Shown: piece by piece, positions 21,444-22,675 of the stretch
Layout: each line of letters starts with the position of its first letter
How positions within the stretch are numbered: position 1 is the stretch's first letter
Origin: Natronobiforma cellulositropha
Lineage (GTDB): Archaea > Halobacteriota > Halobacteria > Halobacteriales > Natrialbaceae
DNA length: 64,000 nt
Direction: 5' to 3'
Assembly: GCF_025629245.1 (NCBI RefSeq)
Contig: NZ_JANZXN010000019.1
Span: forward strand, 1 to 64,000
Made by a program: the position numbers and the translations under genes
Notes under the pieces: generated by a model
What the model saw: the letters and a program-made list of their open reading frames with translations, nothing else
What the model was told of the DNA's origin: nothing
Database searches by the model: none

Positions 21444-22583
21444 TCAGTCCTCGCGGTGGTCGGCGGGGAACCAGGCGAGTTCGTGGTCGGCGGTGACGCG
21501 GACGGCGACGCGTTCGTCGAGGTCGATCGTATCCGAGTGGTTGTGCATACACTCGATCGTCTCGCCGTTGTCGAGGTCGACGCGGTAGAGGATGGTCGGC
21601 CCGAGATACCGGCGGTAGACGACCTGGCCGTCGGTCTCCACGTCGGTCGCCGGAAACGCCGTCACGTCGTCGGGACGGACCATGACGTCGATGGTGCTGC
21701 CGTCGTACTGTTCGGCGAGACCGTGGACGTCGTCGCGCAGGACGCGTCCGAGGGCGGTCCGGACGTGGTCGCCGTGGACGTCACCGGAGAGAAAGCTCGC
21801 GTGGCCGAGAAAGCCCGCGACGAAGCGCGAGGTCGGCTGCTGGAACACCGCTTCGGGTTCGTCGATCTGTTCGATCGCGCCGCCGTTCATCACCGCGACG
21901 CGGTCGGAAATTGAGAGCGCCTCCTCCTGGTCGTGAGTGACGGAGACGGCCGTCACCCCCGCTTCCTTGACGATCCGTCGCACCTCCTCGCGCATCTCGA
22001 CGCGGAGGTCGACGTCGAGGTTCGAGAACGGTTCGTCGAGCAGCAGAATCTCCGGTTCGGGCGCGAGCGAGCGCGCCAGCGCGATCCGCTGTTGCTGGCC
22101 GCCGGAGAGTTCCTCCGGGTAGCTCTCGGCCTGCGCCTCGAGGCCGACGAGCGACAACAACTCCTCGACGCGGGCGGTTCGCTCGGCCTTCGGCCACCCG
22201 TTGAGACCGAAGGCGACGTTCTCCCGGGCGGTGAGGTGTGGAAAGAGGGCGAACTCCTGGAAGACGATGCCGATGCCCCGGCGCTCCGGCGGGACGAACG
22301 TGCCCTCGCCGGCGACGCGTTCGCCCTCTAAGCGAATTGCGCCGCCGGTTGGGCGCTCGAGTCCGGCGATCAGCCGGAGCGTCGTCGTCTTCCCACAGCC
22401 GGACGGTCCCAGGAGCGTGAGAAACTCGCCCTCGTGGACCGACAGCGAGAGGTCGGGGACGACACACTCGTCGCCGTAGTGTTTCGTGACCCCGTCGAGT
22501 TCGAGGACGACGGGCGTCGTCGTCTCGAGTGGACGCGGAGACGGGTCGTCGGTCGTCGTGGTGCGGAGTTCGCTGTTCGACAT
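21444..22583 (-). CDS. fbpC: Iron-type ABC transporter ATP-binding protein (FbpC/PotA group)
   Basis: ATPase subunit of an importer. It has Walker A GPSGCGKTTT near 60, the Q-loop, the LSGGQQQRIALARSLAPEPE signature and ILLLDEPFSNLD Walker B. After residue about 250 follows a TOBE-like regulatory domain (MVRPDDVTAFPATDV). No permease or binding-protein gene is adjacent, so this is an orphan subunit. The promoter holds a perfect DtxR/IdeR-like palindrome, which points to Fe3+ import rather than polyamine or thiamine. Start ATG at 22583 agrees with the promoter spacing. Confidence 0.85.
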   Translation of the reverse strand: MSNSELRTTTTDDPSPRPLETTTPVVLELDGVTKHYGDECVVPDLSLSVHEGEFLTLLGPSGCGKTTTLRLIAGLERPTGGAIRLEGERVAGEGTFVPPERRGIGIVFQEFALFPHLTARENVAFGLNGWPKAERTARVEELLSLVGLEAQAESYPEELSGGQQQRIALARSLAPEPEILLLDEPFSNLDVDLRVEMREEVRRIVKEAGVTAVSVTHDQEEALSISDRVAVMNGGAIEQIDEPEAVFQQPTSRFVAGFLGHASFLSGDVHGDHVRTALGRVLRDDVHGLAEQYDGSTIDVMVRPDDVTAFPATDVETDGQVVYRRYLGPTILYRVDLDNGETIECMHNHSDTIDLDERVAVRVTADHELAWFPADHRED

Positions 22584-22618
22584 CGAGTTCCCCCTGGCGT
22601 GTGCCGGGCGTTATCTGC

Positions 22619-22634
22619 TTTAGGCCAGCCTAAA
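22619..22634 (-). promoter_or_regulatory. DtxR/IdeR-like iron operator, TTTAGGCCAGCCTAAA
   Basis: A perfect 7+2+7 palindrome. It resembles the TTAGG...CCTAA core of DtxR-family boxes, which archaeal SirR/Idr proteins recognise when iron is sufficient. Read on the minus strand it starts right after a CTATATGG TATA element at 22637-22645, and so overlaps the initiation region of the ABC ATPase gene 35-50 bases upstream of its ATG. Binding there would block transcription. Confidence 0.7.
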
Positions 22635-22675
22635 ACCATATAGTTACCGGTTCCGGTACGTCGGGACCGCCCCGC

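Follow-up and report, generated by a model that had tools for sequence, protein, structure and literature searches.

Iron control by proteins of the DtxR family is already known in haloarchaea, and comparative predictions of haloarchaeal DtxR-family iron regulons were reportedly presented by Leyn and Rodionov in 2015. The usual bacterial IdeR/DtxR box is 19 bp long, consists of four CCTAA repeats and accommodates two dimers. A shorter, 14-bp sequence, TTAGGNNNNCCTAA, has been described as a site at which the iron repressor IdeR binds as one dimer and was first seen at one bacterial promoter (PMC8464063). Within the haloarchaea, Idr1 and Idr2 of Halobacterium as well as Idr, SirR, and TroR of Haloferax volcanii represent DtxR-family proteins linked to iron homeostasis (PMC11349517).

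In the DNA stretch analyzed in this study (64,000 nucleotides of a Natrialbaceae-type haloarchaeon, referred to as the window), a site of the 14-bp kind was identified in the promoter of an orphan ABC ATPase gene. It is very probably the operator of a haloarchaeal DtxR/Idr iron repressor, which links this ATPase with a binding protein and a permease encoded on another contig (C15) as one split importer.

The orphan ATPase gene and its promoter

The locus comprises the following features:

21444–22583, minus strand: 379-aa orphan ATPase for an ABC importer of the FbpC/PotA type, with a TOBE_2 domain and all ABC motifs intact
22594–22607, minus strand: short inverted repeat in the predicted 5' leader, CCGGC-ACAC-GCCAG here and CCGGC-N4-GCCGG in relatives
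22619–22634, minus strand: predicted DtxR/IdeR-type operator, TTTAGGC-TG-GCCTAAA on the coding strand, with the 14-bp TTAGGNNNNCCTAA core at 22620–22633
22636–22643, minus strand: TATA box CTATATGG, immediately 5' of the operator, its core TATA being invariant in the promoter alignment
22645–22651, minus strand: ACCGG(C/T)A element just 5' of the TATA box, with 87–100% identity at all seven columns of 39 sequences

The ATPase features an intact Walker A motif, signature, Walker B motif, H-loop, and TOBE domain, and its best solved relative is the ATPase of an iron ABC transporter (9j4r). Against the ferric ATPase equivalog model NF008513, it scored 283.7 bits at a cut-off of 496, and none of the 25 NCBIfam named-equivalog models listed reached its cut-off. 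Since these cut-offs were missed, the protein is not classed here as an equivalog of FbpC but is regarded as an ATPase that probably works in the same way. Its neighbors encode UPF0058, DUF998, and DUF5793 proteins, and no permease or binding protein was found among the neighboring genes.

On the minus strand, ACCGGTA is followed by CTATATGG, a single T, TTTAGGCTGGCCTAAA, 35 bases, and then the ATG at 22583. In the preliminary description, the site was regarded as a perfect palindrome of the DtxR/IdeR-family layout, placed directly after a TATA element and about 36 bases upstream of the start codon of an ABC gene lacking its permease and binding protein. Most of this account was reproduced: the TATA box spans 22643–22636, 35 bp separate the operator from the ATG, the TTAGG N4 CCTAA dyad expected for such a layout is exact at 22620–22633, and no permease or binding protein is encoded near the gene. 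The term 'perfect', in turn, is valid for the arms only, because the central CA is not symmetric. The forward-strand sequence TTTAGGCCAGCCTAAA (TTTAGGC-CA-GCCTAAA at 22619–22634) consists of two 7-bp arms that are perfectly inverted relative to each other, and its asymmetric center causes two mismatches relative to the other strand.

The operator was found 5' of the orthologous ATPase gene in all 39 named loci of an independent Natrialbaceae collection, which includes Natrinema, Natronorubrum, Natrialba, Natronococcus, Halopiger, and Halovivax, and to which one strain contributes both a chromosomal and a plasmid locus. Among 29 further related genomes, the same applied to 26; the three exceptions are a gene cut by the contig end (G002), an ATPase located downstream in a permease operon (G009), and loss of the motif (G027). 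Here and in relatives, the operator sits in the core promoter between TATA box and ATG. In the alignment of the 39 sequences, its arms are about 93–98% identical, the six outer bases of each being practically invariant, and the four central positions 54–87%. Such fixed arms around a variable center mark the probable footprint of a protein that binds DNA as a dimer. Wherever the locus was long enough, the order DUF5793–ATPase–(DUF998)–UPF0058–adenylosuccinate synthase was kept. The order around the ATPase gene itself being conserved, the ATPase has therefore long been separated from its transporter.

Two further elements of this promoter region are conserved. The ACCGG(C/T)A element may occupy the BRE position or represent the site of another factor. 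The leader repeat at 22594–22607, which adjoins a G-rich, possible Shine-Dalgarno stretch, was kept across the Natrialbaceae, and 92.9% of its alignment cells are paired. It was considered as a hairpin forming a second control layer, but its covariation is reached by 67 of 500 shuffles and its energies are ordinary, so the repeat is recorded here as an element that may fold in the RNA or be bound by another factor.

Candidate partners of the ATPase

A ferric-binding lipoprotein and an FbpB-type permease are encoded on another contig (C15:25764–28916), in an operon consisting of the lipoprotein gene (lipobox LAGC) followed by the gene for the two-domain permease. The binding protein matched 28 solved structures, nearly all of them named iron or ferric-binding proteins, and contains the twin tyrosine NSYY (NxYY motif). 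Its gene is preceded by a matching promoter layout, TATATGTGTTTTAGGTCGACCTAAAA, and the operon by two exact operators (C15:25601 and 25742) as well as one copy with a single mismatch (25634). No ATPase gene was found in the 20 kb around the binding protein and permease genes. The ATPase at C15:12074, 13 kb away, was rejected as the missing partner; it is 39% identical over part of its length and lies beside a MacB-like permease.

Among the 55 genomes carrying the permease, an ATPase homologue was located at most 4 kb from it in 24. For 20 of these, the linked ATPase is the best or joint-best orthologue of the genome and is encoded either directly downstream (with G059, G058, G041, and G052 as examples of linkage) or divergently (G005, G032, G045, and G047); in the divergent arrangements, operators lie between the two transcripts. 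The linked ATPases of G001, G020, G025, and G029 are more distant and belong to a second system, next to a second permease copy. Given the operon and divergent linkage in relatives, the orphan ATPase most likely belongs to the C15 ferric importer, and the shared operator most likely keeps the separated pieces of this importer under one control. The earlier suggestion that the ATPase may power a transporter encoded elsewhere under the same iron control is supported by the C15 operon with its two exact sites and one one-mismatch site, and the lack of further copies near iron genes that would have spoken against it was not observed; in relatives, such copies likewise occur near siderophore and iron genes and near genes for DtxR-type repressors.

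A different reading of the ATPase, leaving that of the operator unchanged, is that it serves several permeases as a shared 'housekeeping' ATPase, the iron importer being only one of them. For this there is a precedent in FhuC, which serves several iron importers in Staphylococcus aureus (PMC10147376), and G027 retains an intact ATPase although its binding protein and permease are gone. Moreover, a thiamine-type pair of binding protein and permease on C15 (15952–18972; L036:1116–2972; L186:7953–9113) has no ATPase beside it, unlike in most relatives. However, the thiamine-type permease has an adjacent ATPase match in most of the relatives listed, for which reason it was not preferred as a partner of the orphan, and a second, complete thiamine-type system with its own ATPase is present on C18 of the studied genome. 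In addition, the orthologous permease usually occurs once per genome, which fits a dedicated pair. Sharing is thus considered possible but rather unlikely, and a dedicated ATPase of the C15 importer remains the preferred reading.

The genome G027 deserves attention in this context. In this 99% complete genome, neither the binding protein nor a close permease was found, and the promoter of the ATPase gene (L070) has retained the leader repeat, the TATA box, and the ACCGGCA element, whereas the position of the operator is taken by GTTATCGACGCCGCAATC. Loss of the partners and loss of the operator coincide in this one case, and the ATPase of G027 may serve another client. A tentative and, in our estimation, doubtful generalization would be that the protein is a shared iron-starvation ATPase of the Natrialbaceae, with the operator being kept only while the iron partner is present in the genome, as its loss in G027 would illustrate. 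In G034, a close orthologue of the ATPase is absent, and the partners are absent too.

Motif-bearing genes and the putative repressor

Besides the sites described so far, exact sites were detected at the following positions of the studied genome:

C7:273836: before a DUF7551/DUF7552 protein gene
C15:82452: before a ferredoxin gene
C26:142634: before a small ORF near a DpsA gene

In the relatives G008 and G023, about 20 sites each were found, with 34 motif-adjacent genes in total. Ten of these 34 encode Peripla_BP_2 proteins, of which both genomes together contain 22 (hypergeometric probability about 1e-18, assuming 7000–8000 genes). The remaining targets include three FecCD permeases, two SBP_bac_6 (ferric-binding) proteins, two DtxR-family regulators, and one class-III aminotransferase, a type of enzyme that serves in the synthesis of siderophores. 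Judging from their predicted products, the motif-bearing genes represent an iron-acquisition regulon.

Several additional genes accompany the motif. The DUF7551/DUF7552 protein recurs among motif-bearing genes in three genomes (L035:6930–7832, corresponding to C7:273836; L224; L242), and because of this recurrence may be involved in iron metabolism. Methyltransferase and DUF7090/DUF7504 genes are arranged divergently around the motif in two relatives (L222 and L241), and homologues of both flank the iron binding-protein and permease genes in the studied genome (L036:8825–13556). In two relatives, the gene of a protein with a match to the RGP model (reversibly glycosylated polypeptide) is placed between two operators (L228:2576–3748 and L236:2545–3726), just 5' of the ferric-binding protein gene, and a nearby glycosyltransferase gene (L229 and L237) is also motif-bearing. 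Two relatives have the motif close to the gene of a DtxR-family regulator (L233:2716–3126 and L244:2089–2466), suggesting possible autoregulation; the closest match of this regulator in the studied genome is only 38% identical.

Two clear DtxR-family repressors, each with a helix-turn-helix and a metal/dimerization domain, are encoded in the studied genome: a 144-aa two-domain Idr-like protein (C7:226736–227170) and, at C26:105775, a SirR/MntR-like protein of 226 aa that carries a FeoA domain. The Idr-like protein is most likely the repressor acting on the operator. As both proteins belong to the DtxR family, one of them could be manganese-responsive, and the operator might be read by the C26 protein, answering mainly to manganese and placing the ATPase in a manganese-responsive set; the best-scoring model for the C26 protein is an MntR model, and the gene of this protein adjoins that of a predicted transporter which is ZIP-like by sequence. 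The motif-bearing genes, however, encode ferric-binding and siderophore-type binding proteins, FecCD permeases, and a class-III aminotransferase, which renders control by manganese improbable.

Regarding the frequency of the motif, the operator was the sole match with up to three mismatches in the window (one count per strand), compared with a mean of 0.06 in dinucleotide shuffles. Across all 60 contigs of the genome (3.76 Mb), two exact sites were counted for TTTAGGCNNGCCTAAA and six for TTAGGNNNNCCTAA (TTAGGN4CCTAA). For TTAGGNNNNCCTAA, a first-order Markov model trained on the window predicts about 0.1 sites per genome, and base composition by itself 1.1. In 61 related genomes, TTTAGGNNNNCCTAAA occurred 391 times versus 13 times for the reversed control pattern. 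Sequences that deviate at two or three bases, TTCAGGCTTGCCAAAA among them, occur repeatedly in the genome; they look like a different sequence family and were not counted as operators. Promoter stretches do yield short palindromes by chance, but uniqueness in the window, rarity in the genome, and conservation in 39 of 39 named loci reduce the probability of a functionless chance sequence to a practically negligible level.

Under control by a DtxR/Idr iron repressor, the system would work as follows. When iron is sufficient, Fe2+ as the presumed corepressor would load the repressor, and the dimer would occupy TTAGGN4CCTAA, downstream of the TATA box and ahead of the predicted transcription start, thereby blocking transcription of the ATPase gene. 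When iron is short, the repressor would leave the site, and the ATPase would be made together with the ferric-binding lipoprotein and the FbpB-type permease from C15. The three proteins would then assemble into one ABC importer for Fe3+ (or an Fe3+ chelate), the genes of which are separated.

Comparison with known systems

Actinobacterial IdeR/DtxR boxes share with the operator described here the TTAGG...CCTAA arms and the 14-bp unit. Unlike the classical 19-bp box, the operator is devoid of a second half-site at the required 5-bp spacing, and such a half-site was found in only one of 40 sites of relatives. The sites reported here supply many natural candidates for the 14-bp single-dimer DtxR/IdeR site.

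Haloarchaeal DtxR-family iron regulons likewise comprise DtxR-type repressors acting over iron homeostasis, with the same kind of targets. Compared with these, the link proposed here is that of an orphan ATPase with a distant operon, and the finding of this analysis most likely to prove useful is a putatively split importer whose parts are re-linked through a shared operator. A function and a partner are proposed for an ATPase that is isolated in most Natrialbaceae, and a short shared operator appears usable for the reassembly of ABC importers with dispersed genes in archaeal genomes.

The candidate importer resembles FbpABC and HitABC in its NxYY ferric-binding protein, its fused two-domain BPD_transp_1 permease, and its TOBE_2 ATPase. 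In contrast to these systems, the ATPase is encoded on another contig beside unrelated genes, both here and in most of the family. In this respect it is similar to FhuC, an ATPase encoded away from permeases that it powers and belonging to an iron-responsive set (PMC10147376). FhuC, however, sits in its own operon, fhuCBG, and serves siderophore-type importers, whereas sharing is only a candidate reading for the ATPase described here.
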